A stretch of DNA of 64,000 nucleotides from Lactobacillus sp. W8174 (GTDB lineage: Bacteria; Bacillota; Bacilli; Lactobacillales; Lactobacillaceae). The position numbers and the translations under genes were made by a program. The stretch is from NCBI RefSeq assembly GCF_016100975.1, contig NZ_JACFRN010000002.1, forward strand, positions 210,656 through 274,655, in the 5' to 3' direction. A model generated the notes under the pieces. That model had not been told where the DNA came from and did no database searches. It was given only the letters and a program-made list of their open reading frames with translations. Positions 48,494-62,111 of this stretch are shown piece by piece. Numbering within the stretch: position 1 is the stretch's first letter; every line of letters begins with the position of its first letter.

Positions 48494-49870
48494 ATGGTAA
48501 AAAAGGTTTTCCCGAAAAACTTTCTGTGGGGCAACTCTACATCTAGTATGCAAACTGAAGGAGCTGTCAAAGAAGGAGGCAAGGGTAGGTCAGTTTATGA
48601 TACTTATAGAGCACAAGATGGCAGTTCAATTTGGGATACAGCAATCGATGAATATCACCGCTATCCAGAAGATCTGGATTTATATGCTAATCTAGGGATC
48701 AATTGCTACCGTTTTCAAATCTCTTGGAGTAGAGTTAATCCGCTAGGAGACGGTGATTTTAATCCTGAAGGAATTAAATTTTATTCAGACTTAATTGACA
48801 GCTTGCTTGCAAGAAATATCGAACCTATGATTTGTCTTTACCACTTTGATATGCCATTGAATTTGGCACAAAAATATAATGGCTTTAGTAGCAGACATGT
48901 AGTTGATGCATTTGTTCGTTATGGTAAAAAAATGATTGATATTTTTGGTGAAAGGGTAAAATACTGGCTAACATTTAATGAACAAAATCTTTATTTTATG
49001 CCTGGAGCAGCAAAAATTGCCGGCAAAATAAAAGGTGATGAAACAATCGATGATTTGTATATTATTAGTCACAATTTGATGCTGGCTCACGCGCAAGTTG
49101 CTAATTACTTACATGAAAAAACGAATGATAAAATTGGTGGTATGTTGGCATATAGTGAAGTTTATCCCGTCTCATCAATGCCTAAAGATATTTTATATGC
49201 TCGTCAAATAGACGAATTTCTTAACAAAAACTTGCTTGATGCTTTTGTTTTAGGACATTATTCAAATGAAGTAGTTAATTTTGTCCAAAAAAATAATATC
49301 CATACTGGCGTCACACCCGGTGATCTTTCAGAAATCAGTAAAATGAAGAGTGATTTTATAGCATTCAGTTATTATCAAAGCTCGACAATTAGCAGCACTC
49401 TTGTTCCCGAAAAAATCGCGCCTAATTATTACTTTAAATTTGGTGGGAAAGAGAATCCATTTTTGCCTGTAAATGAGTGGGGCTGGTCGATTGATCCTGA
49501 TGGTTTTAGGGATGTTCTGACTAAAACCTATAACCAGTATCATGTGCCTATGTTTCCAATCGAAAACGGTATTGGAATAAGGGAAAAATATGATGGCAAA
49601 GAAATTCAGGATGATCAGAGAATTGAATACCACAAAGAACATTTACGTGCTTTAAAAAAAGCAATAAATAATGATGGTGTCAAGGTTCTAGGCTATTTAG
49701 TCTGGGGGTTAATTGATATTCCCAGTTCTGCTGGTGATATGGATAAGCGTTATGGTATGGTTTATGTTAATCGCACTAATTCCGAACCATTGGACCTCAA
49801 GCGTATTCCTAAGAAGAGCTATTGGTGGTTTAAAAAGGTAATAGCAGGTAATGGCGCAAGCCTGAATTAA
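48494..49870 (+). CDS. GH1 6-phospho-beta-glycosidase
   Basis: A 458-residue TIM-barrel glycosidase that cleaves PTS-phosphorylated beta-glycosides. The acid/base Glu is in WLTFNEQN and the nucleophile Glu in FPIENGIG. The C-terminal phosphate-binding pattern known from LacG-type enzymes (Ser, seven residues before Lys, then Tyr two further) is met by SSAGDMDKRYG, so a 6-phospho substrate is likely. There is no signal peptide. It is first in a run with a ROK kinase, a LacI regulator and a fucosidase, and has an operator at its promoter. The sugar specificity is not readable. Confidence 0.93.
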   Translation: MVKKVFPKNFLWGNSTSSMQTEGAVKEGGKGRSVYDTYRAQDGSSIWDTAIDEYHRYPEDLDLYANLGINCYRFQISWSRVNPLGDGDFNPEGIKFYSDLIDSLLARNIEPMICLYHFDMPLNLAQKYNGFSSRHVVDAFVRYGKKMIDIFGERVKYWLTFNEQNLYFMPGAAKIAGKIKGDETIDDLYIISHNLMLAHAQVANYLHEKTNDKIGGMLAYSEVYPVSSMPKDILYARQIDEFLNKNLLDAFVLGHYSNEVVNFVQKNNIHTGVTPGDLSEISKMKSDFIAFSYYQSSTISSTLVPEKIAPNYYFKFGGKENPFLPVNEWGWSIDPDGFRDVLTKTYNQYHVPMFPIENGIGIREKYDGKEIQDDQRIEYHKEHLRALKKAINNDGVKVLGYLVWGLIDIPSSAGDMDKRYGMVYVNRTNSEPLDLKRIPKKSYWWFKKVIAGNGASLN

Positions 49871-49886
49871 AAAAGAGGGCACAAAT

Positions 49887-50768
49887 ATGAAATTAGCAGT
49901 TTTTGATATTGGTGGAACTAATATAAAGTGTGGTAGTTTTTATGACAATAAAATAGCTGATACGAAGAAGTTTGCTACACCCAAGACTTTTGCAGGTTTG
50001 AAATTGCAAATGCACCGCTTCCTTGATCAGCATGCTTTTGATGGGATAGCTATTAGTGCACCAGGTGCTGTGGATAAACCGAACGGAATTATTAAAGGTA
50101 TCAGTGCAGTGCCCTATATTCATGATAGACCCATATTTAAAGAATTACAGCAGGAATTCTCGTTACCTGTCGCAATTGAAAATGATGCTAATTGTGCTGG
50201 TATTTGTGAAATTAATATAGGTGCCGGAAAAGATTTTACGAATGTAGCTTTCATTGTAATTGGCACAGGTATCGGCGGAGCAATTTTCATTAATAGAAAA
50301 TTGTATAAAGGCAATCATTTATTTGGGGGAGAATTTGGCCTTATGCAAACCAGTGATGGAGGAACTCTCAGCACACGGGCAACAATTGTTAAAGCCGCAT
50401 CTGAATATGAAAAACAAACCCATGTTGATAATATCGATGGTGAAAAATTATTTCTGTTAGCAGATCAAGGAGATAAATTAGCGCAAGACCTGATTGATAA
50501 AGTTTACAGTTTTTTGGCTGTTGGCTTATACAATATTGAAGTCGCTTTTGATTTCGATGCTTTAATAATTGGAGGTGGTATTTCAGCTCATAAAGGTTTT
50601 AGTTCTGAATTATCTAAACGTTTATATGCACAATTGGTAAAAAATAAAGTAAGCCAAATAATGCCTGAAGTCAAAGAATGCCAGTACCACAATAATGCGA
50701 ATTTATATGGTGCCGCATATAACTTTATCTCAGATTATGCTATAGAGGTGAAAAATGGCAACAATTAA
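49887..50768 (+). CDS. ROK-family sugar kinase
   Basis: A 293-residue kinase of the ROK family. The ATP site is FDIGGTNIKCG and the later IGTGIGGAIF; the catalytic Asp lies in IENDANCAG. The usual ROK zinc motif (CxCGxxGCxE) is absent: the region reads GEFGLMQTSDGGTLSTR. A DNA-binding domain is also absent, so it is an enzyme rather than a regulator. Related zinc-less members phosphorylate glucose or beta-glucosides. Here it may rephosphorylate the sugar freed by the GH1 or GH29 enzyme. The next gene overlaps its end by 14 bases. Confidence 0.9.
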   Translation: MKLAVFDIGGTNIKCGSFYDNKIADTKKFATPKTFAGLKLQMHRFLDQHAFDGIAISAPGAVDKPNGIIKGISAVPYIHDRPIFKELQQEFSLPVAIENDANCAGICEINIGAGKDFTNVAFIVIGTGIGGAIFINRKLYKGNHLFGGEFGLMQTSDGGTLSTRATIVKAASEYEKQTHVDNIDGEKLFLLADQGDKLAQDLIDKVYSFLAVGLYNIEVAFDFDALIIGGGISAHKGFSSELSKRLYAQLVKNKVSQIMPEVKECQYHNNANLYGAAYNFISDYAIEVKNGNN

Positions 50769-51738
50769 AGATATTGCTAATAAGTCAGGTGTATCCGTAG
50801 GGTCTATCTCTCGCTATTTAAATGGTGTTCATTTAAAAAAAGAAAATGAAGAAAAAATAAAGCAGGCTATCAAGGAATTACACTATATACCAAATCAAAC
50901 CGCTAAATCTCTTAAGATGAACAAGTCTTTTTCAATTGGGATATTGGTAGATAACATGGATAACTTTTACAGTTCTCAATTAATAGCAGCTTTAGAGCAA
51001 TTGTTCGATCATGCCGGGTACTTTTTACTTTTAACCAGTCATCGTAATAATGAAAAAACTTTTGAATTTAAACTAGCAAAATTAATTGAGCGGTCTGTTG
51101 ATGCTTTAATCGTTTTGAAAGCAGAAAGTAAGTGGCAATCATTTCAAAAAGTGGGGCAATTGCCATTACCCGTTGTTTCAGTTGAAGCTTCATTGCCAGA
51201 TAAAAAAGTGCCAGAAATTATGAGTGCTGATATGATGGCTTCGCAAAAGGTTGTCACTAAAATACTGCAAAAAAGAAATAAACCTGCTTTTTTGATTCCA
51301 ACTGAAAGTGACTATGTGCTGCAACAACGGCTAGCTGGTATCAACGTCGCATGCAAATCAATGGGAGTAACACTCACTCCTGATCAAGTAATTTATGTTG
51401 ACTACGGTACGACTGAAGCTTACGAAGCAGTTGCAGGATTGAATAAAAAAGGTTTTGACTCAATTTTTGTCACTAATTATACTAATGCTATTCAAGTCGT
51501 TCAAGGAGTTCGTGATTGTGGTAAAAAGGTAGGAACAGATATTGCTGTGGCTGGATTTGGCTATTCCCATTTATTACAAAATATGAAATTACCAGTTACT
51601 TTAATAAAGCAACCAGTTGAGAAAGTAGCGGAAAAAGTGGCAGAAACAGTATTAAAGCTGCTTGATCATCAAAAAGTAGAAAAGCAAGTTTTTATTCAAG
51701 ACAAGATATTTTGGCAAAAGGAGTTGCAAGATGAATGA
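50755..51738 (+). CDS. LacI-family transcriptional regulator
   Basis: A 327-residue regulator. The N-terminal helix-turn-helix is TIKDIANKSGVSVGSISRYLNG, with the hinge helix QTAKSLKMNKS, followed by a periplasmic-binding-like effector domain. LacI hinge helices insert at a central CpG, which matches the CG centre of the three TTGAAACGTTTC-type sites at 48458, 53105 and 53141. I infer that it represses both this run and the PTS gene, with release by a sugar or sugar phosphate. It overlaps both neighbours, so it is part of the operon it likely controls. Confidence 0.93.
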   Translation: MATIKDIANKSGVSVGSISRYLNGVHLKKENEEKIKQAIKELHYIPNQTAKSLKMNKSFSIGILVDNMDNFYSSQLIAALEQLFDHAGYFLLLTSHRNNEKTFEFKLAKLIERSVDALIVLKAESKWQSFQKVGQLPLPVVSVEASLPDKKVPEIMSADMMASQKVVTKILQKRNKPAFLIPTESDYVLQQRLAGINVACKSMGVTLTPDQVIYVDYGTTEAYEAVAGLNKKGFDSIFVTNYTNAIQVVQGVRDCGKKVGTDIAVAGFGYSHLLQNMKLPVTLIKQPVEKVAEKVAETVLKLLDHQKVEKQVFIQDKIFWQKELQDE

Positions 51739-53056
51739 AAAGAATAAGAAGAGACAAGATATAGTTCAGAATAAGAAAACGCAGCAGGAAAGCTATCAAG
51801 ATTTACCGCAAGCAATTCAAAATAAATTAGAATGGTTTCAAAACCAAAAACTGGGTATTATTTTTCATTGGGGCCTATATGCGCAAGCAGGTATTGTTGA
51901 ATCATGGCAATTATCAAAAGAGGATGATTGGGCTCGTAAGCATGGTGCCTTTCGCAAGGACTTAAAAGAATTAAGACATGATTATTGGGCATTAAATCAA
52001 GAGTTTAATCCAGTAAATTTTGATCCAGAAAGTTGGGCAAAAGCAGCAAAATACGCTGGCTTTAAGTATATGATTTTTACCACAAAGCACCATGATGGGT
52101 TCAACATGTACGATACCAAATATAGTGACTATAAGATTACCAGTAAAGATTCTGCTTTTCATAATAATCCATTAGCTGACATCTTAAAATATGTTAATGA
52201 GGCTTTTCGCAAAGAGGGAATTGCTACCGGCGCTTATTATTCAAAGGCTGACTGGCATTGTCCTTTTTATTGGGAACCAGGCTCTGATCCTCGAGGAAGA
52301 TATGCAAGCTATGATCCTGCCCAAAAGCCTGAGTTATGGCAAAAATTCCAAAAGTTTGTTGAAAATCAGTTAGTTGAAATTTGCCAAAATTATGGACCGA
52401 TTGACATATTATGGCTTGATGCTGGCTGGGTTAATGGAGGTCACCATGAATTCTTGCCTATGGAGCAAATTGCCAGAAAAATCTGGCAAATTAAAGCTGA
52501 TACCCTGATTGTTGACCGCACAATCGGCGGAAAGTACGAAAATTATGTTACGCCAGAGCAACAAATACCTATCATACCCCCACAAAAGGTTTGGGAGTCT
52601 AACTTAACTTTGGCTAAAAACTGGGGATATGTACCTAATGATCAGTATAAAAGTTTTAGTGAAATACTAAATAATATTATCAAAATTATCTCACTAGGCG
52701 GCAACGTCATTTTAGGAGTTGGTCCTAAACCAGACGGTACATTACCACAACCAGCCCTTAAATTAATGAAAAAGCTAGGGGATTGGTTAAAAGTTTTTGG
52801 TGAAGCCGTCTATGATACACGTGGCTGTCCAGAATATGTCAATAAAAATATTTTTATGACGAAGAAGAACTCAGATTATTATTTATTTTACAACAGTAAT
52901 GAAGCTGATTATAAAATTTCACTGAATGATTTACCAGTAAAATCTAATGCGGCTTTAAGTTTAGAAACGGGGAAGCCAGTTTCTGTTTCCAATAATACTA
53001 TTAGCTTGCCAAAAACTGCTTTTCCATATGGTGTAATAAAAATTAAGAAGTTATAA
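51731..53056 (+). CDS. GH29 alpha-L-fucosidase (intracellular)
   Basis: A 441-residue glycosidase. GH29 marks include IFHWGLYAQAGIVESW near the start, FTTKHHDGFNMYDTKYSDY, and DILWLDAGW, which carries the expected nucleophile Asp. A C-terminal beta-domain follows from about residue 340. There is no signal peptide, so it acts on imported fucosides. Its start overlaps the regulator stop after GGAG. With a phospho-beta-glycosidase and a PTS permease in the same regulon, the likely diet is a fucosylated or fucose-containing short glycoside. No fucose catabolic genes are in the window. Confidence 0.92.
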   Translation: MNEKNKKRQDIVQNKKTQQESYQDLPQAIQNKLEWFQNQKLGIIFHWGLYAQAGIVESWQLSKEDDWARKHGAFRKDLKELRHDYWALNQEFNPVNFDPESWAKAAKYAGFKYMIFTTKHHDGFNMYDTKYSDYKITSKDSAFHNNPLADILKYVNEAFRKEGIATGAYYSKADWHCPFYWEPGSDPRGRYASYDPAQKPELWQKFQKFVENQLVEICQNYGPIDILWLDAGWVNGGHHEFLPMEQIARKIWQIKADTLIVDRTIGGKYENYVTPEQQIPIIPPQKVWESNLTLAKNWGYVPNDQYKSFSEILNNIIKIISLGGNVILGVGPKPDGTLPQPALKLMKKLGDWLKVFGEAVYDTRGCPEYVNKNIFMTKKNSDYYLFYNSNEADYKISLNDLPVKSNAALSLETGKPVSVSNNTISLPKTAFPYGVIKIKKL

Positions 53057-53083
53057 ATAGCCTCTCAAAATATTCAATTTTTA

Positions 53084-53154
53084 TGAAATCACTTACATTT
53101 TTAGTTGAAACGTTTCCAATATAGAGTTATAATAATATTGTTGAAACGTTTCAA
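53084..53154 (+). promoter_or_regulatory. PTS promoter with two LacI-type operators (O2, O3) and a cre-like site
   Basis: -35 TTGAAA (53105-53110) and -10 TATAAT (53128-53133) with a 17-base spacer. TTGAAACGTTTCCAA (53105-53119) overlaps the -35, and the perfect TTGAAACGTTTCAA (53141-53154) covers the start. Upstream, TGAAATCACTTACA (53084-53097) fits the CcpA cre consensus in all but one central base. Repression by the local LacI protein plus carbon catabolite control is the likely scheme. Confidence 0.8.
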
Positions 53155-53192
53155 AAGTTAATACTTTAAGGTAAAATGTTGAAGGGGAGAAA

Positions 53193-54524
53193 ATGAGTAT
53201 TTCTGACAAAATTAGCAAAATGATTTTACCATTAGCTACTAAGATTGGTAACCAACGTCATTTGGTAGCTATACGTGATGCCTTTGTCGACATTACACCT
53301 ATTATAATGGTAAACTCATTGTTTATATTATTAAATTCCTTGGTTTTAAATCAGCCTGCTGTTTTAAAAGTGTTTCCGTATGCTGCAAATTTGACCCAAA
53401 TGGGAACTATGGTAAATAACGGTACCATGGGTTTTATGACTATTTTTGTGACTTTTATTATAGGTTACAGGTTACTAAATTCTTATATTGCAGATGGTAG
53501 AATTAGTAATAATGACATTAGTCCTATTCATGCTGGAATATTAAGTGTAGCTACAGCTTTGATAATGTTTCCTTTAAATAATCGAGCTGTTGTGTCTGGC
53601 TCAATGAAAAATGTGACGGTAACTGGGGTCTATACACAAGCACTAACTTCATCTGGGGGTATGTTTGTGGGCTTGATTGCTGCGGTTTTGAGTACTGAAC
53701 TATTATTATTTTTTTATAAATCTAAAAAATTAAGAATAAAAATGCCAGATGGAGTACCACCAGCAGTGGCTCAATCATTTAATTCTTTGATTCCTGAATC
53801 TCTTGTAGTAATTGTTTTTGCAGTTTTTAGTTTTGCCTATGTTCAAATATTCCATCAAGGAGTTACTGACTTGGTTCAAACCATTATTTCTAAACCTCTT
53901 CAAGCTGCTATGGAATCTTGGATTGGTTGCTTTGTCATTCAGTTTGTTACTCAATTCTTATGGTTCTTTGGTTTACACGGACAAAATATTGTAGCTTCAG
54001 TTACTTCTCCTCCTATGCTAGCTGCAATCCAGCAAAATATGGCTGCATTTGCAGCTCACAAAGCAGTGCCTAACATTGTTACTAATCCATGGCTTGGAAT
54101 GTATACTTTGTTCGGTGGTACTGGAGCAATACTACCTTTCTTAATAGCGATTTTTGTTGTTTCTAAACGAAAAGATTACCGAGATGTTGCTAAATTAGGT
54201 TTGCTGCCAAGCTTCTTTAATGTTTCAGAACCAATCATGTTTGGTCTTCCTGTAGTTATGAATCCATATTTTGTAATTCCATTCATTTTTGTACCATTAA
54301 TTAATTTGGCAATAGCTTATCCTTTGACTATGATGGGCTTAGTGGCTAAAAGTGTTGTAATACCAGCTTGGACTATCCCTCCTATTTTAACTACCTGGGT
54401 TACTACTGCTGGAGATATTCCTGCAACAATTTTGTCTTTACTGCTTTTCATTTTAGATATATTCCTTTACATGCCATTTGTTATTGCAAGTAATAAAGGA
54501 ATTAAAGTAAAGCCTGAAAAGTAA
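53193..54524 (+). CDS. PTS permease, cellobiose-class EIIC (first)
   Basis: A 443-residue membrane permease of the CelB/lactose-cellobiose family with about ten hydrophobic segments. The N-terminus ILPLATKIGNQRHLVAIRDAF and the block WFFGLHGQNIVASVT are typical, as is NVSEPIMFGLPVVMNP near the sugar site. No EIIA or EIIB domain is fused or encoded nearby, so it must use subunits from elsewhere. Its promoter carries two copies of the operator found before the GH1 gene, tying it to that run. GGGGAG precedes the ATG. Confidence 0.95.
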   Translation: MSISDKISKMILPLATKIGNQRHLVAIRDAFVDITPIIMVNSLFILLNSLVLNQPAVLKVFPYAANLTQMGTMVNNGTMGFMTIFVTFIIGYRLLNSYIADGRISNNDISPIHAGILSVATALIMFPLNNRAVVSGSMKNVTVTGVYTQALTSSGGMFVGLIAAVLSTELLLFFYKSKKLRIKMPDGVPPAVAQSFNSLIPESLVVIVFAVFSFAYVQIFHQGVTDLVQTIISKPLQAAMESWIGCFVIQFVTQFLWFFGLHGQNIVASVTSPPMLAAIQQNMAAFAAHKAVPNIVTNPWLGMYTLFGGTGAILPFLIAIFVVSKRKDYRDVAKLGLLPSFFNVSEPIMFGLPVVMNPYFVIPFIFVPLINLAIAYPLTMMGLVAKSVVIPAWTIPPILTTWVTTAGDIPATILSLLLFILDIFLYMPFVIASNKGIKVKPEK

Positions 54525-54692: not shown

Positions 54693-55091
54693 ATGTTATC
54701 AAATTCCAGTCAAACTATAGAAAACAAACAAATTATCAGAGATTATTTTAACTCTTGGCTTAAAAAAGATTTTTCTAATCTTGATAGTTGGTTTAGCCAA
54801 GATGTCTATTACCGTGAATGTTATGGTGCTACTTATGAAGGATTAGATGAGTTAAAAGCCTATATTAATTCGAAGTCTAAGGAGCAGACAGTTTTAAAAT
54901 GGGATATTTATAAAATTGATCAAACTGATACTGGTAAATTTGTGGTTACTTGGTATTTTGATGCTGCAGAAAAAGAAGAATATTGCTTCGATGGCGTTTC
55001 TTTAATAGAGTTCTCCGGCAATAAAATGAAAAAAGTGGTGGAATATTCAACTAAGCATGAAACCTTCCGTCCGTTTAAAGATAAAATATAA
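54693..55091 (+). CDS. SnoaL-like (NTF2-fold) protein
   Basis: A 132-residue protein with the NTF2-like layout: an N-terminal helix (QIIRDYFNSWLKKDFSNLDSWF), then YYRECYGATYEGLDELKAYI, and three long strands (VLKWDIYKID, KFVVTWYFDA, VSLIEFSGNKMKKVVEY). The fold is used for small ligand-binding proteins and enzymes; no catalytic set can be named here. It stands alone between two PTS genes with its own AGGAG site, and its link to them is unclear. Confidence 0.75.
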   Translation: MLSNSSQTIENKQIIRDYFNSWLKKDFSNLDSWFSQDVYYRECYGATYEGLDELKAYINSKSKEQTVLKWDIYKIDQTDTGKFVVTWYFDAAEKEEYCFDGVSLIEFSGNKMKKVVEYSTKHETFRPFKDKI

Positions 55092-55294: not shown

Positions 55295-55324
55295 GGTAAA
55301 CGTTTCCATTTGCTATGGTATAAT
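55295..55324 (+). promoter_or_regulatory. cre-like site and extended -10 promoter of the second EIIC gene
   Basis: GGTAAACGTTTCCA (55295-55308) matches the CcpA cre consensus at 12 of 14 positions and sits over the -35 area. TGGTATAAT (55316-55324) is an extended -10. The gap 55092-55294 otherwise shows only AT-rich DNA. Confidence 0.65.
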
Positions 55325-55359
55325 GCAAGTGTAGTGAAATATTAGTAGGAGGAATTATT

Positions 55360-56730
55360 ATGAATGCTATAATTAACTGGCTAAACAAGCATCTCGTTCC
55401 TGTTGCGGCTAAGATCGGCTCTGTTCGCTGGCTTGTTGCACTGCGTGATGCCTTTATCTCTATTATGCCTATTATGCTGGCTGGTTCAGTAGCTAGTGTA
55501 TTAAATGCTATTTTTAGGGATGTTCCCACTAACCTAGGATGGACAGGCGTTGTTAATTCAATGCAATGGCTTATCAATATCAATGCGTTGGTGTGGACAG
55601 GCTCAACTGCAATTTTAGGATTGCTGTTTGCCTTTACATTTGGCTATCACATGTGTGTCCAATATAAAGTTGAACCGATCGCAGGGGGCCTGCTGACATT
55701 AGGTACCTTTATTATGAGCTTGCCTCAAAGCTTTTCAGTTGATTTGAAAAATGCTCTTACTCTTACCAAGGGCGATCTAAAAACATTAACTGCTGCCAAT
55801 GTAGCTGTTACTGGCAAAAATATCAGTTCTTGGGGCTGGTTTAACTTTAACAAGTACTTTGGAGCTTACGGCTTCTTCACCATAATGATTATGGGTGCTA
55901 TTTCTGTAGCAGTTTATATTGCTTTAGTAAAGAAACATATTACTATTAAAATGCCTGACAGTGTTCCACCCGCAGTTTCCAATGCTTTTACAGGTATTAT
56001 TCCCGCAACCGCTGGTTTGTTCGTTGTTGGTATTATTAACTATCTATTCAGTCTTAAAAACACGACAGTGATTGACTTAATTGCCAAGACAATTCAAGAG
56101 CCGTTAATGAAGATGGGTCAAGGTTATGGCTCGTTGCTACTGATAGTATTTCTAGTTCAACTATTTTGGTTCTTTGGTATTCATGGCACCAATGTTTTGG
56201 CTCCGGTTACAGAAAGTATTTGGACTACAGCACTGATTGCCAATACTAATGCCCATAAAATGCAAAAGGCATTACCTTACATGTGGACTCGAAGTGACTT
56301 TGATCTTTATGTTTGGATCGGTGGTGCTGGCTCAACACTGTTACTTATCTTAGCCGTTCTTGCCTTTTCAAAGCGTGAAGATGAACGTGCCGTTGCTAAG
56401 ATTTCACTTGTACCTGGGATCTTCAACATTAATGAACCTATGATGTTTGGTATGCCAATTGTTTTAAACCCAATTTATATTATTCCATTTGTTCTTGCTC
56501 CATTAGTTATGGTATCAATTGCCTATGGTGCTTTAAGTCTTGGCTTGGTTAATCGAGTTGCCGTACAGACAACCTGGGCGATGCCACCGTTCCTTAATGC
56601 TATCATTGCTACAATTGACTGGCGTTCAGTTATTTTACAAATTGTTAATATGGTCGTTGGTTTCTTGATTTATGTACCATTTGTAATTGCTTCTAATAAC
56701 GTCGATCCTGAAAAAGTTAATAAAGTTTAA
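55360..56730 (+). CDS. PTS permease, cellobiose-class EIIC (second)
   Basis: A 456-residue membrane permease of the CelB family: LNKHLVPVAAKIGSVRWLVALRDAF, WFFGIHGTNVLAPVT, and NINEPMMFGMPIVLNP. It lacks EIIA/EIIB partners in the window. It is 14 bases ahead of a MupG-family gene with no terminator between, so the two are likely one operon. I infer that its cargo is the substrate of that enzyme, perhaps a MurNAc-containing or other amino-sugar disaccharide. GGAGG precedes the ATG. Confidence 0.94.
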   Translation: MNAIINWLNKHLVPVAAKIGSVRWLVALRDAFISIMPIMLAGSVASVLNAIFRDVPTNLGWTGVVNSMQWLININALVWTGSTAILGLLFAFTFGYHMCVQYKVEPIAGGLLTLGTFIMSLPQSFSVDLKNALTLTKGDLKTLTAANVAVTGKNISSWGWFNFNKYFGAYGFFTIMIMGAISVAVYIALVKKHITIKMPDSVPPAVSNAFTGIIPATAGLFVVGIINYLFSLKNTTVIDLIAKTIQEPLMKMGQGYGSLLLIVFLVQLFWFFGIHGTNVLAPVTESIWTTALIANTNAHKMQKALPYMWTRSDFDLYVWIGGAGSTLLLILAVLAFSKREDERAVAKISLVPGIFNINEPMMFGMPIVLNPIYIIPFVLAPLVMVSIAYGALSLGLVNRVAVQTTWAMPPFLNAIIATIDWRSVILQIVNMVVGFLIYVPFVIASNNVDPEKVNKV

Positions 56731-56744
56731 GGAGCAATAATTTT

Positions 56745-57842
56745 ATGAAACAGTTGGGTATTTCACTTTATCCCGAGCAAAGTACATTTGAGCGCGATAA
56801 AGAATATATGTATTTAGCTCATAAATATGGCTACAGGAGAATTTTTACCTCACTTTTGCAGTTAAAAAGTGCAAGTGGTGAAGATATACTTGCCAAGTTA
56901 AAAAAAGATGTTGCTTATGCAAACAATTTGGGTTTTAAAACTGTAGTCGATATTAATCCCGTTTTGTTTAAAGAACTAAAAATTGATTATAATGATCTTG
57001 CTTTTTTCCATAACTTAGGCGTCTGGGGCTTGCGGTTAGATGAGGGCTTTAGCGGCATGGAAGAAGCTGCCATGACTCGTAATCAATATGGACTCAAGAT
57101 TGAACTAAATATGAGTCGGGGTACAAATTATCTTGACAGTATTATGGCTTATGATCCGGAGAATGATAACCTAATTGGTTGTCATAACTTTTATCCACAA
57201 GAATATACGGGCTTAAGTGAAAGGATTTTTAATGAATATTCACAAAAGTATCGTGATTATGGATTGCATACTGCTGCGTTTATTTCATCTAAAAACGCTA
57301 AATTCGGTCCTTGGCCTGTTCATGAGGGTTTACCGACACTTGAAAGCGATCGTCACCGAAATATTTTTAGTCAGGTTACTCACTTACGCTTGAGCAAAAT
57401 GATTGATGACATTATTATTGGCAATGCTTTTGCCAGTGAAAATGAGTTGGCTGCTGCAGCAAATGCTTTTAACAGTGCATATCCTACTTTGAAAATTGTG
57501 TTTGAAGATGATGTCTTACCAATTGAGCAAACGATTTGCTTAAAAGAGCCTCATTTGTACCGCGGTGATGCATCTGCATTTCTGTTACGCGACACCCAAC
57601 CTCGTGTTGTTTATGCCAAAGAAAAAATTCCAGCTCATAATAATGACAAAGCCTCTTTTGCGAGAGGAGATATAGTTGTTGTTAATGATCAATATCCTCG
57701 GTATAAAGGAGAACTGCAAGTTGTTTTAACGCCGTTTGCTAATGATGGCAGACGTAATCTTGTAGGACACTTACATCCCGATGACTTAGACTTGTTAAAA
57801 TCTATTGAACCTTGGAGTACGTTTATAATGAAGCAAAGCTAA
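56745..57842 (+). CDS. MupG-family (DUF871) 6-phospho-glycosidase, first copy
   Basis: A 365-residue protein of the DUF871 family: a TIM barrel followed by a small cyclophilin-like C-terminal domain. The start KQLGISLYPEQSTFERDKEYM is close to the family consensus, as are FTSLLQL, LRLDEGFSG, CHNFYPQEYTGL and GLPTLESDRHR. The C-terminal domain holds ARGDIVVVNDQYPRYKGELQ. The characterised member, S. aureus MupG, splits MurNAc-6-phosphate-GlcNAc. It follows an EIIC gene and precedes a second copy across a terminator. Confidence 0.9.
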   Translation: MKQLGISLYPEQSTFERDKEYMYLAHKYGYRRIFTSLLQLKSASGEDILAKLKKDVAYANNLGFKTVVDINPVLFKELKIDYNDLAFFHNLGVWGLRLDEGFSGMEEAAMTRNQYGLKIELNMSRGTNYLDSIMAYDPENDNLIGCHNFYPQEYTGLSERIFNEYSQKYRDYGLHTAAFISSKNAKFGPWPVHEGLPTLESDRHRNIFSQVTHLRLSKMIDDIIIGNAFASENELAAAANAFNSAYPTLKIVFEDDVLPIEQTICLKEPHLYRGDASAFLLRDTQPRVVYAKEKIPAHNNDKASFARGDIVVVNDQYPRYKGELQVVLTPFANDGRRNLVGHLHPDDLDLLKSIEPWSTFIMKQS

Positions 57843-57862
57843 TTCATTTAGCTTAAATATTT

Positions 57863-57893
57863 AAGCCGTGAGCAAATTAACTCACGGCTTTTT
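57863..57893 (+). terminator. Terminator between the two MupG-family genes
   Basis: A perfect 10-bp stem AAGCCGTGAG/CTCACGGCTT with an 8-base loop, then Ts. Confidence 0.9.
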
Positions 57894-57925
57894 GTTTGTG
57901 TACATGTTTTAACAAAATAAAATAG

Positions 57926-57951
57926 TATAATGGTCCATGTAAGTGATTTCA
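57926..57951 (+). promoter_or_regulatory. Promoter and cre-like site of the second mupG operon
   Basis: -10 TATAAT (57926-57931) is followed by TGTAAGTGATTTCA (57938-57951) over the likely start. The site equals the reverse complement of the one at 53084-53097 and differs from the cre consensus only in a central C-to-T change. Confidence 0.6.
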
Positions 57952-57973
57952 CACTAAGGGAGAAATAGAATAA

Positions 57974-59026
57974 ATGCTGGGTTTTTCGATTTATCTAAAC
58001 CGTGATCTAACGGCTGATGATTATAATTATATACTTGCGATGCGCAATGCGGGATTAACAACTATTTTTACTTCATTACATATTCCTGAAGATGATCCCA
58101 AAGTAATATTAAACAGATTAGCAGAGCTGACTAAATGGTGTAAGAACTTAGAAACTTCTGTCATTGCTGACGTTTCTGAAAGTGGTATGGCAAGGCTAGG
58201 ACTTGCACTTGAAAATGAAGAGCAGATTGCCAGCTTGGGCTTGACTGGCCTGAGAATAGACGATGGTGTTTCACCAGCTACTATAGCAAAGCTTTCACAG
58301 AAAATGCCAATTGCTCTGAACGCCAGTACTATCAATGAAGATGACGTCACAGCTTTACGAGAGCATGGTGCCAACTTCGAAAATTTGCAAGCTTGGCATA
58401 ATTTTTATCCGCGACCAGAAACCGGTTTAGATTCAAATTGGTTAAAAGCGAAAAATGATTGGTTACATCACATGAATTTAGAAACAATGGCATTTGTGGC
58501 AGGTGATGCTGTTTTACGTGGTCCAATTCATGCAGGATTGCCAACTCTTGAAAAGCAAAGAGGAGAGAATCCTTTAGCTGCAATGTTGGAATTAAGACGC
58601 TTAGCCTGTGACCATGTTTTTATTGGGGATGCCTCTTTATCACCGCAAATGATTGATAGTTTTAAAAATTATATTAAACAGCAGATTATTACACTTCGCA
58701 TTGATAAAAACTTGCCTGAATTATTTAATTCTGAATGGCATAATCGTCCAGATGTAGCGCGTGATGTAGTGAGGTTAACGGAGGGGCGTAGCCGTCAGCT
58801 TTTTGATGTTGCACCCCAGGGAAATCCTGAAGCTCGATCAAAAGGAACAATTACATGTGATAATAAATTATATTTGCGTTATCAAGGTGAATTACAAATA
58901 ACTAAGCGTGATTTACCTGCTGATGAAAAAATTAATGTTTTAGGACACGTGGTAGCTGAAGATTTACCACTTTTGAACCAAATAGGTGCAGGGCAAAGCA
59001 TCATTTTCATTGCTGCAGGTGAATAA
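57974..59026 (+). CDS. mupG: MupG-family (DUF871) 6-phospho-glycosidase, second copy
   Basis: A 350-residue protein of the same family as the preceding gene but clearly diverged. It keeps LGFSIYLNRDLTADDYNYIL, FTSLHIPEDD, LRIDDGVSP, AWHNFYPRPETGLD, GLPTLEKQRGENP and the C-terminal RYQGELQI. Distance to murP/murQ makes this copy the better candidate for the true MupG, cutting MurNAc-6-P-GlcNAc after PTS uptake. The ATG lies about 14 bases from GGGAG, a long spacing. A separate promoter with a cre-like site suggests catabolite control. Confidence 0.88.
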   Translation: MLGFSIYLNRDLTADDYNYILAMRNAGLTTIFTSLHIPEDDPKVILNRLAELTKWCKNLETSVIADVSESGMARLGLALENEEQIASLGLTGLRIDDGVSPATIAKLSQKMPIALNASTINEDDVTALREHGANFENLQAWHNFYPRPETGLDSNWLKAKNDWLHHMNLETMAFVAGDAVLRGPIHAGLPTLEKQRGENPLAAMLELRRLACDHVFIGDASLSPQMIDSFKNYIKQQIITLRIDKNLPELFNSEWHNRPDVARDVVRLTEGRSRQLFDVAPQGNPEARSKGTITCDNKLYLRYQGELQITKRDLPADEKINVLGHVVAEDLPLLNQIGAGQSIIFIAAGE

Positions 59027-59068
59027 AATTTACTTAGTGTTTGAAATAAGCTACTATCTTTATTGAAT

Positions 59069-59077
59069 TGGTATAAT
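59069..59077 (+). promoter_or_regulatory. Extended -10 promoter before the PTS EIIBCA gene
   Basis: TGGTATAAT (59069-59077) lies about 95 bases ahead of the gene. No good -35 is seen. It could give murP-murQ expression independent of the mupG promoter. Confidence 0.4.
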
Positions 59078-59172
59078 CCATTAAAACATGATTTTTAATA
59101 ATTAATTATCATAATTTGCAAATTGGTCTAATAAATAATATACTTATTTTGTCTTTAAAAAAGGAGGAAAAA

Positions 59173-61137
59173 ATGAGTACAGATAAATATTCCAAAATAG
59201 GCCAAGAAATCTATGATCATATTGGTGGTATCGCAAACGTTAAATCTTTATACCATTGTATGACCAGAGTGAGAATTACGGTCAGGGATAAATCTAAAGT
59301 GGATTTAGCTGGTTTAAAACAAGTTAAAGACATTTTGGGAGTAGTTGATGGTGAAACGCTGGAAGTGGTTTTAGGTCCTGGTGTAAATGCCAAAGTTGCT
59401 CAAAGTATGGTTAATGCAGCTGGTGTAAATGAAAATGATCCTTTTCCAGATGTAACAGCTAAGGAAAGTTCTTATCAAAAAGACAAGAGCGAAGTTATGG
59501 AGAAAGCTGAAGAAGTCCACGCAGCCCATAAAGCCAGCTTAAAGCAAACTTGGTGGCGTATTGTCTTGCAACATATTTCGGCTATCTTTATACCTTTAAT
59601 TCCAGCATTTGTTGGTGCCGGTTTAATTTCTGGTGTATCAGGTATTTTAAGAAATATGTTGACAGCCAAAATGCTGCCGGCAAGCTGGAACTTAGGCATC
59701 ACCGTTTTAGGTGTCATTGCTAATGGGCTATTTGCCTACTTAAATATTTATGTTGGTATTAATGCTGCTAAAGAATTTAATGCCACACCTGGACTTGGTG
59801 GTATCATCGGCGGTGTGGTAATGCTGCCTGGTGTGGTAGCTCCTATGGTAATACCAAATATTTTTAATGGTCAGCCGTTAGCTGCCGGACAGGGTGGTAT
59901 CATCGGAGTTTTGCTTGCAGTATGGCTATTGTCATATGTTGAAAAATTCTTCCACAAATACATGGCTGATTCAGTTGATATTATTTTCACACCATTTTTA
60001 ACTTTATTAGTAATGGGCCTAATTACCATTTTTATCATTATGCCTTTTGCTGGTTGGGTTTCAAACTCACTCATTGGCGGAATTAACTGGGTCTTAAAGG
60101 TTGGTGGACCTATTGCCGGTTTTATTTTAGGTGCAGTGTTCCTACCAATGGTTATGTTTGGCCTGCATCAAATTTTAACGCCAATTCATTTGCAAATGAT
60201 TCAAAAGATGGGTTATACGCCGTTATTGCCTATTTTAGCAATGGCTGGTGCTGGACAAGTAGGTACTGCAATTGCTTTATGGGTTAAATGTCGTAAGAAC
60301 AAAGAATTAACTAAACTAATTAAGGGAGCTTTACCCGTCGGAATTTTAGGAGTAGGCGAGCCACTAATTTATGGTGTTTCTCTTCCTTTAGGCCGTCCCT
60401 TCATTACTGCATGTTTAGGTGGTGGTATTGGTGGTGCCGTTTTAGGAGCCTTCGGCAATGTCGGCTCAATTGCTATTGGTACATCTGGTATTGCCTTAAT
60501 TCCGTTAATTGCCCACAATAAAGCATTAAATTATTGTATTGGTCTATTAGCAGCTTATATTGGCGGTTTTATTCTAACTTATTTCTTTGGTGTACCTAAA
60601 AGCGCTGTAGTTGCTAAAAATGAAGATGGCTCTTTCGTTAATCCCGAGGATAATAAAACAAGTCACGAAAGTGTGGCAGTTAATTTAGCCAGTCCTGTGA
60701 ATGGTGAATTGGAAGAATTATCTGCTGTAAAAGATGATGTTTTTGCTCAAAAAATGCTGGGAGACGGCTTTGCTGTAATTCCTGATAATGATGGTAAAAT
60801 TGTTGCTCCAGTTGATGGACGTATTTTAACAATTATGGATACGAAACACGCAGTTACAATGGAATCAGATCAAGGTCCATTGGAATTAGTCTTGCATTTT
60901 GGAATTGACACTGTGGAATTAAAGGGTGCTCCATTTGAAATAAAAGTAAAAAGTGGACAGTATGTTAAACGTGGTGACGTTATTGCTCAAATGGATGTTC
61001 CAGCTATTAAAGCTGCGGGCAAGCCAACAGACGTGATGGTAATGATTAACAATATGGAGGATGTAGCAAGTATTTCTCCTGTTGCTACAGGCAAGGTAAC
61101 TGCAAATCAGATTGTTGCAACTGTAAAAACAAATTAA
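59173..61137 (+). CDS. murP: PTS EIIBCA, probable N-acetylmuramic acid permease
   Basis: A 654-residue fused PTS permease of the glucose/sucrose superfamily. The EIIB domain (about residues 1-90) has the phospho-Cys in YHCMTRVRITV (Cys29). The EIIC membrane domain runs from about 120 to 480 and includes the GVGEPLIYGVSLP motif. The EIIA domain (about 510-654) has the His in LVLHFGIDTVELKG. The frame is open from 59116, but the ATG at 59173 follows GGAGG. MurNAc as substrate is inferred from murQ directly behind and mupG in front. Known MurP proteins lack EIIA, so the fusion makes this one self-sufficient. Confidence 0.85.
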   Translation: MSTDKYSKIGQEIYDHIGGIANVKSLYHCMTRVRITVRDKSKVDLAGLKQVKDILGVVDGETLEVVLGPGVNAKVAQSMVNAAGVNENDPFPDVTAKESSYQKDKSEVMEKAEEVHAAHKASLKQTWWRIVLQHISAIFIPLIPAFVGAGLISGVSGILRNMLTAKMLPASWNLGITVLGVIANGLFAYLNIYVGINAAKEFNATPGLGGIIGGVVMLPGVVAPMVIPNIFNGQPLAAGQGGIIGVLLAVWLLSYVEKFFHKYMADSVDIIFTPFLTLLVMGLITIFIIMPFAGWVSNSLIGGINWVLKVGGPIAGFILGAVFLPMVMFGLHQILTPIHLQMIQKMGYTPLLPILAMAGAGQVGTAIALWVKCRKNKELTKLIKGALPVGILGVGEPLIYGVSLPLGRPFITACLGGGIGGAVLGAFGNVGSIAIGTSGIALIPLIAHNKALNYCIGLLAAYIGGFILTYFFGVPKSAVVAKNEDGSFVNPEDNKTSHESVAVNLASPVNGELEELSAVKDDVFAQKMLGDGFAVIPDNDGKIVAPVDGRILTIMDTKHAVTMESDQGPLELVLHFGIDTVELKGAPFEIKVKSGQYVKRGDVIAQMDVPAIKAAGKPTDVMVMINNMEDVASISPVATGKVTANQIVATVKTN

Positions 61138-61151
61138 TTTACGGATAAAAT

Positions 61152-62051
61152 ATGGAAATTAAAAACTTAGAAACCGAAGCACGAAATCCCGCAACAGCGC
61201 ACATTGATACGATGTCTACATTGGAAATGGTCAAAACAATTAATGCTGAAGATCAAAAAGTAGCTCTTGCTGTAGCAGGAGAGAGCGATCAAATTGCTAA
61301 AGCAATTGATCAAGCTTCCACAAGATACTCTGCTGGAGGACGCTTAATCTATATTGGTGCTGGAACTAGTGGACGATTAGGCGTGCTTGATGCAGCTGAA
61401 CTAGTTCCGACTTACGGTATTAAGCCGGAAAGAGCAATTGGCTTAATTGCAGGTGGCAAAAAAGCTATGTTTGCTGCTGTAGAGGGTGCAGAAGATTCAG
61501 CATCACTGGGAGAAGCCGACCTAAAAAATCTTAAATTAACGGCAAATGACATTGTTATTGGCTTAGCTGCCAGTGGCCGAACTCCTTATGTTATTGGCGG
61601 GTTAAAACATGCCGCTAAAGTCCAAGCTCTAACTATAGCTGTAGCTTGTGTGCCAAATTCAGTGATAGGTCAAATCGCCGAAATTGCGATTAATGCTGTG
61701 GTTGGTCCTGAAGTGATAACCGGCTCAACCCGTATGAAAGCCGGTACTGCTCAAAAAATGATTTTAAATATGATCTCAACTGGTGTAATGATCAGACAAG
61801 GCAAAGTTTATCAAAATGTGATGGTTGATGTGCAACCAACCAATGATAAGCTAGTTGATCGTGCTTGCCGTATTATTAGTGAAACGGCAGCAATTCCGAC
61901 TGCTAAAGCTCTAAGCTTTTTAAAAAAAGCAGACAATGATGTTGCTCTTGCAATAGTGATGGCTAAAACGGGTAAAAGTAAGCACGAAGCTGCACAATTG
62001 TTAACTGAACATCATGGTATTGTAAGTGACGTTTTAAATAGTTTGAATTAA
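61152..62051 (+). CDS. murQ: N-acetylmuramic acid 6-phosphate etherase
   Basis: A 299-residue lyase that removes D-lactate from MurNAc-6-P to give GlcNAc-6-P. The SIS-fold sugar-phosphate site is YIGAGTSGRLGVLDAAEL. The catalytic Glu region is AAVEGAEDS, and GPEVITGSTRMKAGTAQKM is the most conserved block. The length is normal. It starts 14 bases after the PTS gene with a weak ribosome site and ends the operon before a terminator. The deacetylase NagA, needed for the next step, is not in the window. Confidence 0.97.
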   Translation: MEIKNLETEARNPATAHIDTMSTLEMVKTINAEDQKVALAVAGESDQIAKAIDQASTRYSAGGRLIYIGAGTSGRLGVLDAAELVPTYGIKPERAIGLIAGGKKAMFAAVEGAEDSASLGEADLKNLKLTANDIVIGLAASGRTPYVIGGLKHAAKVQALTIAVACVPNSVIGQIAEIAINAVVGPEVITGSTRMKAGTAQKMILNMISTGVMIRQGKVYQNVMVDVQPTNDKLVDRACRIISETAAIPTAKALSFLKKADNDVALAIVMAKTGKSKHEAAQLLTEHHGIVSDVLNSLN

Positions 62052-62063
62052 AAATTTCAGTTA

Positions 62064-62111
62064 AGTGTTCCTTAATAGCTAAAGCTATAATTATAAGGAA
62101 CACTTTTTTTA
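62064..62111 (+). terminator. Terminator of the murP-murQ operon
   Basis: AGTGTTCCTTA paired with TAAGGAACACT, plus an inner ATAGCT/AGCTAT stem, followed by seven Ts. Confidence 0.9.

Follow-up and report, generated by a model that had tools for sequence, protein, structure and literature searches.

The stretch of DNA that we analyzed (the window; 64,000 nt of the 2.05-Mb genome of Lactobacillus sp. W8174) carries, in this order and with all frames open, a cellobiose-class EIIC permease gene of the phosphotransferase system (PTS), a first gene of glycoside hydrolase family GH170 (copy 1), a terminator, a second GH170 gene (copy 2), a PTS EIIBCA gene and murQ. This order, which an earlier note had read from the letters alone, was confirmed by the open reading frames (ORFs), the domain scans and the stem of the terminator. 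The earlier note had further proposed that the entire locus is devoted to salvage of peptidoglycan amino sugars, with two diverged enzymes of the MupG family (DUF871, now GH170) and two PTS permeases handling two different phosphorylated disaccharides. The features of the locus, including candidate operators scored against what we take to be the consensus of the catabolite-responsive element (cre), are as follows.

55295..55308, no strand assigned: cre-like or LacI-type operator candidate before the EIIC-copy 1 unit, GGTAAACGTTTCCA, 2 mismatches to the consensus
55360..56730, plus strand: PTS EIIC of the lactose/cellobiose family, ChbC-type permease, 456 aa, above the TIGR00410 cut-off
56745..57842, plus strand: GH170 copy 1, ChbE-type, proposed 6-phospho-N-acetylglucosaminidase, 365 aa (MupG_N 6e-94, MupG_C 1e-32)
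57863..57890, plus strand: intrinsic terminator between both units, with a perfect 10-bp stem, 6 GC pairs and a T tract
57938..57951, no strand assigned: cre-like operator candidate before copy 2, TGTAAGTGATTTCA, 1 mismatch to the consensus
57974..59026, plus strand: GH170 copy 2, MupG-type, proposed 6-phospho-N-acetylmuramidase, 350 aa (MupG_N 2e-73, MupG_C 5e-26)
59173..61137, plus strand: PTS EIIBCA, MurP-type, with a fused EIIA (PTS_EIIA_1), 654 aa, the start being the ATG behind AAAGGAGG (the mechanical ORF begins upstream at TTG 59116)
61152..62051, plus strand: MurQ, etherase of N-acetylmuramic acid (MurNAc) 6-phosphate, TIGR00274 at 375.7 bits vs. a cut-off of 302
62063..62105, plus strand: likely terminator of the mupG-murP-murQ unit, an inverted repeat with 12-bp perfect arms and then a T run

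Both GH170 proteins are full length, with both family domains (PF19200 and PF05913) above the curated cut-offs, and they are the only MupG_C matches in the whole genome; their identity to each other is 28%. The nearest PDB entry is 1x7f for copy 1 (4e-89) and 2p0o for copy 2 (5e-77), which come from B. cereus and E. faecalis, respectively (PMC6262408). Copy 1 is 82-95% identical to its counterparts in loci of L. kimbladii, L. laiwuensis, L. kullabergensis, L. huangpiensis, L. melliventris, L. helsingborgensis, L. bombicola and L. apis, in a search that may have omitted its own record. These near relatives are bee and bumblebee lactobacilli, as indicated in part by paper titles.

GH170 paralogues number up to six per species (PMC6262408), and MupG is described as the only biochemically characterized enzyme of the family (PMC12791066). 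Our comparison covered 241 loci, comprising the window, 160 stretches chosen among the matches listed and the best 80 of 468 resembling copy 1; from 252 GH170 ORFs of 320-420 aa, 59 rows at least 90% identical to a kept row were dropped, leaving 193 in a tree of the quick kind, with SH-aLRT support only and a warning of long branches meeting. The sample for this tree is without the B. coagulans CelX protein and those of 1x7f and 2p0o, and neighbor families were assigned from clusters, a single member of each having been scanned with Pfam. One branch (SH-aLRT 99) places copy 2 among 74 proteins on one side and copy 1 among 119 on the other, and the same split recurs with a support of 100 (70 vs. 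118) in a second tree of 188 rows, from which five long-branch rows (L093 among them) had been removed; several internal branches on the copy-2 side are weakly supported. Loci with the S. aureus order GH170-MurQ-EIIBC-RpiR (L094, L096 and L097, with L095 dropped as near-identical) fall on the copy-2 side, as does L093, which is without RpiR. Copy 2 hence groups with mupG-murQ-murP-murR loci, represented by gene order rather than by the S. aureus protein itself, while copy 1 lies outside this group.

The split of the GH170 tree tracks the type of the neighboring transporter. As judged by the nearest same-strand transporter within four genes, the copy-2 side has a MurP-type EIIBC in 43/74 rows, a lactose/cellobiose-family (lac-type) transporter in 5/74 and none in 26/74, vs. 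lac-type in 81/119, MurP-type in 1/119 and none in 37/119 on the copy-1 side. The sole "MurP-type" neighbor on the copy-1 side (L315) is a 165-aa EIIA fragment, and three of the five lac-type cases on the copy-2 side are tandem bee loci in which copy 1's EIIC is the nearest. Within the same distance, MurQ accompanies 50/74 copy-2-side vs. 8/119 copy-1-side rows and RpiR-type regulators 42 vs. 15, with DUF3284 (0 vs. 18) and BadF-type kinases (0 vs. 21) confined to the copy-1 side; mapped onto the 188-row tree, the context label changes 6 times vs. 29-41 times in 200 label shuffles. We also observed that 22/74 copy-2-side rows have neither a MurP-type EIIBC with MurQ nor a lac-type PTS within four genes (L199, L204, L205, L206, L211, L212 and others, genus-internal). 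These data bear out the earlier claims that the two enzymes are diverged and that they go with two types of PTS, and the check suggested in the earlier note, whether the copies fall in separate clades with matching EIIC types, has a positive outcome; two different phosphorylated disaccharides, as deduced from clade and transporter partners, are likewise well supported.

The two sides differ in residues as well. A shared G-x-x-T-x-E motif, found by pattern in all but 25 of 74 copy-2-side and 12 of 119 copy-1-side proteins, is preceded by RGP plus three residues in 47 of 49 matched proteins on the copy-2 side and by GPW plus a longer stretch in 103 of 107 on the copy-1 side, with copy 2 carrying the RGP and copy 1 the GPW version; at another position, the copy-1 side has N (95%) and the copy-2 side D (100%). 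In AlphaFold models with a mean predicted local distance difference test score (pLDDT) of 93.9 (copy 1) and 92.8 (copy 2), the RGP/GPW loop comes after barrel strand 7, and the D/N position after strand 8. Active sites of TIM barrels sit at the end reached after the strands, where both marks fall. We surmise that the RGP arginine may hold the lactyl carboxylate of MurNAc. That both GH170 enzymes split the same 6-phospho disaccharide, as might be thought of adjacent genes of one family with cre-like sites ahead of both units, is very unlikely in view of the 28% identity, the split at 99-100% support, the motifs that differ at the barrel's active-site end and the different transporter partners.

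Copy 2, EIIBCA and MurQ most likely match the known MupG/MurP/MurQ route for MurNAc-N-acetylglucosamine (MurNAc-GlcNAc), as judged by clade, motif and permease relationships. The etherase passes the MurQ model, and the NCBIfam models for EIIBCA were undecided between MurP and a beta-glucoside type (TIGR01995 at 421 bits over all domains, the MurNAc IIBC model at 303 over BC only, both under cut-off), so we relied on comparisons of the BC part. This part is 52-60% identical to the MurQ-adjacent EIIBC of S. aureus-order loci, as well as of numerous loci from outside the genus, and 38-47% identical to other MurQ-adjacent EIIBC; among 11 paralogues in its own genome, it is 25-33% identical to eight, with no match to the other three, the loci of which are truncated. 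EIIBCA is therefore closer to MurQ-linked permeases than to glucose-family EIIs of other kinds. PMC5061867 describes MurP proteins of the EII-BC form, from which EIIBCA departs by its fused EIIA, and the earlier note considered this domain unusual. We found EIIA fused in 29/67 MurQ-adjacent EIIBC (24/33 in Lactobacillus, 5/34 outside, redundant loci counted), so that the fusion is a lineage trait rather than a mark of new function; the notion that an EIIA-bearing MurP is new was rejected on the same count.

For the first unit, the closest parallel is found in L. paracasei BL23, in which the chbC/chbE pair of the chbRCDE-chbBA cluster is needed for growth on N,N'-diacetylchitobiose (PMC12791066, 2026); ChbE is 26% identical to S. 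aureus MupG, with 43% positives, and the published survey includes clusters missing some PTS or regulator genes (PMC12791066). The genome G147 (loci L057/L131) from the same family has the published layout (chbR-C-D-E, divergent chbB-A) as GntR-EIIC-DUF3284-GH170 with divergent IIB-IIA; its GH170 shares 87.6% identity with the Lacticaseibacillus zeae protein and, when compared with one S. aureus-order GH170, has 27% identity and 44% positives (for five such proteins, the ranges are 24-27% and 40-45%). The EIIC and copy 1 of the window are each 67.6% identical to their G147 counterparts, 67% and 66% identical to those of Lacticaseibacillus zeae and of L. chiayiensis and, taken together, 66-68% identical to casei-group chbC/chbE pairs, with copy 1 at 68% to the ChbE-type protein P0001; the two window genes are thus co-orthologous to the chbC/chbE pair. 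Across 12 chb-type clusters (EIIC-DUF3284-GH170) of Lactobacillaceae, two with split frames, identities are 63-69% for EIIC and 58-72% for GH170, as compared to 33-47% for the EIIC, where present, of five DUF3284-bearing loci outside the family and 31-35% for the EIIC beside other compared copy-1-type GH170s. The species acidipiscis, sharpeae and pantheris in the Fig. 8 legend of PMC12791066 are also among our copy-1 matches (best 80 of 468). We did not accept the PDB match of the EIIC as proof of chitobiose specificity, since 3qnq was its sole match and likewise that of a second EIIC farther upstream. Because of the 66-68% identity to chbC/chbE pairs and the requirement of the L. paracasei pair on that sugar, we consider a 6-phospho-N-acetylglucosaminidase acting on diacetylchitobiose the most likely function of copy 1, ahead of activity on an entirely new substrate. 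The new substrate that had been suggested for it gives way to one already tied by mutants to GH170 and a cellobiose-class PTS (PMC12791066), and peptidoglycan salvage by the whole locus was an overstatement, given the match of EIIC and copy 1 to the chbC/chbE pair.

We thus consider it probable that the locus consists of two neighboring, separable modules for two GlcNAc-containing disaccharides, namely diacetylchitobiose and MurNAc-GlcNAc, with substrates and reactions that we infer from characterized relatives. In the first module, EIIC, with IIA and IIB from elsewhere in the genome, would import N,N'-diacetylchitobiose (GlcNAc-GlcNAc) and phosphorylate the non-reducing sugar at C6; copy 1 would cleave the product into GlcNAc-6P and GlcNAc, with GlcNAc-6P proceeding to fructose-6P via NagA and NagB and free GlcNAc being phosphorylated by a cytoplasmic kinase, possibly a ROK kinase 6 kb upstream or a BadF-type kinase elsewhere. 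The genome has three lac-type IIA genes, lac-type IIB and nagA outside the locus, together with one BadF-type kinase above cut-off. In the second module, EIIBCA, as a MurP with its own EIIA, would import MurNAc-GlcNAc from wall turnover as MurNAc-6P-GlcNAc, which copy 2 (MupG) would split, and MurQ would strip lactate from MurNAc-6P to yield GlcNAc-6P, at which both routes would join.

Several observations weigh against this reading: 1) no DUF3284 gene (chbD) was found in the window or genome and no chbA or chbB locally, making this a chbC-chbE pair and not a full chb cluster; 2) the nagB-like gene scores 228.9, under the model cut-off of 236.9, and the ROK kinase passes no NCBIfam cut-off; 3) no GH18 chitinase was matched in the genome, so diacetylchitobiose would have an external origin; 4) the role of ChbE is based on mutants and not on purified enzyme (PMC12791066); 5) GH170s of Companilactobacillus (L282) and Pediococcus (L275) that share 56-61% identity with copy 1 adjoin an EIIC with just 31-32% identity, meaning that close copy-1-type enzymes also partner other permeases; 6) copy 2 is just 31-34% identical to S. 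aureus-order GH170s, and in the tree, S. aureus MupG and L. paracasei BL23 ChbE are represented by genomes that share the published order of genes; 7) the Fisher p value for the association of transporter and clade (1.4e-27) ignores ancestry, and there are true exceptions to the rule in L108:5983-7053 and L154:16679-17719, where a copy-2-side GH170 is nearest to a lactose/cellobiose-family transporter.

That the two modules are neighbors but separable is seen in related lactobacilli. The EIIC-copy 1 pair is intact in L. kimbladii (L254) and in L. huangpiensis (L255), but copy 2, EIIBCA and MurQ are gone within the 17 kb covered, with the copy-2 operator remaining at the deletion scar (L254:9090-9400 and L255:9090-9400); the sequence after the leftover operator resembles, by eye, the EIIC gene that follows MurQ in the window. 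At the corresponding place in L. helsingborgensis (L259) and in a metagenome-assembled genome (MAG; L258), MurQ adjoins another MurP, an EIIBC of 39% identity that lacks EIIA.

An alternative reading is that both modules serve peptidoglycan, with copy 2 acting on MurNAc-GlcNAc, a glucosaminidase product, and EIIC with copy 1 on GlcNAc-MurNAc or GlcNAc-anhydroMurNAc, a product of muramidases or lytic transglycosylases, releasing GlcNAc-6P and MurNAc, from which a kinase would provide MurNAc-6P for MurQ. Copy 1 does stand directly before mupG-murP-murQ in the window and in related bee lactobacilli, and the genome has a BadF-type kinase. Moreover, other copy-1-side loci include 9 with the anhydro-MurNAc kinase AnmK (5 of them with MurQ), 22 with a BadF-type kinase and 9 with MurQ and no MurP-type EIIBC (8/9 also with a BadF-type kinase), all of these loci having lac-type PTS genes; L315, with MurQ and a BadF-type kinase, is outside this last count because of its EIIA fragment, and AnmK had no match at any copy-2-side locus. 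Against this, EIIC and copy 1 belong to the chbC/chbE pair and not to the AnmK/MurQ-associated group, the EIICs of which (L117, L118 and L314) are 32-33% identical to that of the window; AnmK was absent among the scanned window genes, the rest of the genome not having been searched for it, and L. kimbladii and L. huangpiensis hold the first module without MurQ at the locus, the rest of their genomes likewise not searched. Taken together, we view peptidoglycan as the source of both substrates as quite unlikely.

The AnmK-linked branch merits attention on its own. Copy-1-type GH170 genes together with MurQ, AnmK, a BadF-type kinase and a cellobiose-class PTS were found at L117:3-8011, L123:2980-11961, L125:3930-10758, L223:3270-10560 and L225:3-7968. 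Such AnmK/MurQ gene sets would suit a pathway in which a cellobiose-class PTS takes up GlcNAc-(anhydro)MurNAc, GH170 cleaves it to GlcNAc-6P and (anhydro)MurNAc, and kinase and MurQ carry out the further conversion, a PTS route for which our literature search found no report. For copy 1 of the window, a different role is more likely.

Two further features lie upstream of the EIIC gene.

48494..54524, plus strand: GH1-ROK kinase-LacI regulator-alpha-L-fucosidase-second cellobiose-class EIIC, from domain scans and neighbor comparison
54693-55091: SnoaL-like small protein of 132 aa, between both EIIC units

The order of the upstream unit is the same in L. laiwuensis (L253) and L. kullabergensis (L256), and in L. 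kullabergensis the upstream EIIC is broken into two ORFs at L256:4461-5785 (= L150). It is possible that the ROK kinase and LacI regulator are partners of the EIIC-copy 1 unit. The unit also raises the prospect that the imported sugar derives from the core of N-glycans, with fucosylated diacetylchitobiose being defucosylated by the upstream unit and then split by copy 1, a scheme that shares its diacetylchitobiose step with the two-module reading. Besides the conserved location directly upstream, an alpha-L-fucosidase lies within four genes in seven copy-1-side rows vs. one copy-2-side row (5/7 having lac-type PTS genes and no MurP-type gene), and an L. paracasei strain without the AlfR2 repressor reportedly uses fucosyl-diacetylchitobiose via another permease, AlfH (PMC12791066). 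On the other hand, the SnoaL-like gene intervenes between the units, the two EIICs are 32% identical and, among solved structures, the fucosidase is closer to 6gn6 (1e-53) than to AlfC (4e-23). We regard this origin of the substrate as somewhat unlikely. In other Lactobacillus loci (L163 and L165-L168, also L162 and L164), IIB, EIIC, copy-1-type GH170, IIA and alpha-L-fucosidase genes stand side by side, and these gene sets suggest core-fucosylated N-glycan disaccharides as substrate; a term search of two honey-bee Lactobacillus papers gave no mention of fucosid-, muramic, chitobiose, N-acetyl or cellobiose.

With respect to regulation, GGTAAACGTTTCCA recurs at an unchanged distance (-65) both in L. 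kullabergensis L256 (= L150) and in L. huangpiensis L255, with a one-base variant in L253 and L254, and was not found in the other bee-type loci checked. The copy-2 site TGTAAGTGATTTCA is identical, 36-39 bases before copy 2, in L253, L256 (= L150), L257, L258 and L259; its counterpart has 2 mismatches in L261 (= L153) and is different in L307 (= L144) and L262. Cre-like matches with at most 2 mismatches number 94 in the window vs. 72.6 expected in shuffles, a level reached by 3/100 shuffles, so that a single match carries little weight by itself. The region holds the copy-2 site a second time, in that TGAAATCACTTACA, its reverse complement with one half in common, lies at 53084 before the upstream EIIC. 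Window positions 53084-53155 hold three palindrome-like operator candidates, i.e., the 53084 site, TTGAAACGTTTCCA and the perfect palindrome TTGAAACGTTTCAA, the last noted by eye. CcpA and the LacI-type regulator at 50755-51738 could equally be candidates for these sites.

The genome has five helix-turn-helix matches of RpiR type, none of them in the window, and in the 146-bp gap from copy 2 to the start of EIIBCA the only ORF of at least 80 aa is the EIIBCA extension that begins at TTG; in a MAG of a related Lactobacillus (L261 = L153), an RpiR gene separates copy 2 from EIIBCA, and we rejected on this ground the idea that loss of RpiR is the rule in the lineage. Hence, the earlier note was correct on the lack of an RpiR-type MurR and on the presence of cre-like sites, but not in having the sites act instead of MurR, as B. 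subtilis and S. aureus reportedly have cre sites at murQ promoters together with MurR (PMC5061867) and LacI-type operators are equally possible. Overall, its two diverged enzymes, two PTS types and two disaccharides are supported, while peptidoglycan for the whole locus, the new substrate, the unusual EIIA and the replacement of MurR by cre are unsupported or overstated.

More broadly, we propose tentatively, as an idea that falls short of even chances, that GH170 comprises two functional halves, with RGP enzymes taking MurNAc-6P and GPW enzymes GlcNAc-6P at the cleaved end, that operons of the GPW half with AnmK, BadF-type kinase, MurQ and cellobiose-class PTS constitute a PTS recycling route for GlcNAc-(anhydro)MurNAc, and that the bee-gut locus joins both halves. 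The parts worth following are the clade rule with its clade-specific motifs and the AnmK-linked branch. The rule of clade, motif and transporter predicts which paralogues act on MurNAc-GlcNAc of the wall vs. GlcNAc-ended disaccharides, and a single locus with both GH170 kinds, from a bee symbiont whose named relatives are in culture, offers a handy test of it.

Both modules correspond to systems known separately in other bacteria, one of them described in 2026. The first module resembles chbRCDE-chbBA of L. paracasei BL23 (PMC12791066) in having a cellobiose-class EIIC followed by a GH170 gene, 66-68% identical to casei-group chb-type pairs. In contrast to that cluster, the window has no DUF3284 gene, no local IIA or IIB and no adjacent chbR-like gene (GntR-type in G147), and its EIIC and copy 1 adjoin a mupG-murP-murQ unit. 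CELO2 of B. coagulans likewise contains a GH170-family gene (celX, a DUF871 protein) inside a cellobiose-class PTS operon, which its authors tie to uptake of cellobiose (PMC6271610); celX is not in our tree. The second module resembles mupG-murQ-murP-murR of S. aureus in combining GH170, a MurP-type EIIBC and MurQ in one unit (PMC6262408, PMC5061867), but differs in gene order, in the EIIA on MurP and in having no RpiR-type MurR within the unit. As in the window, the S. aureus-order loci L094-L097 have a cre-like site immediately ahead of mupG.

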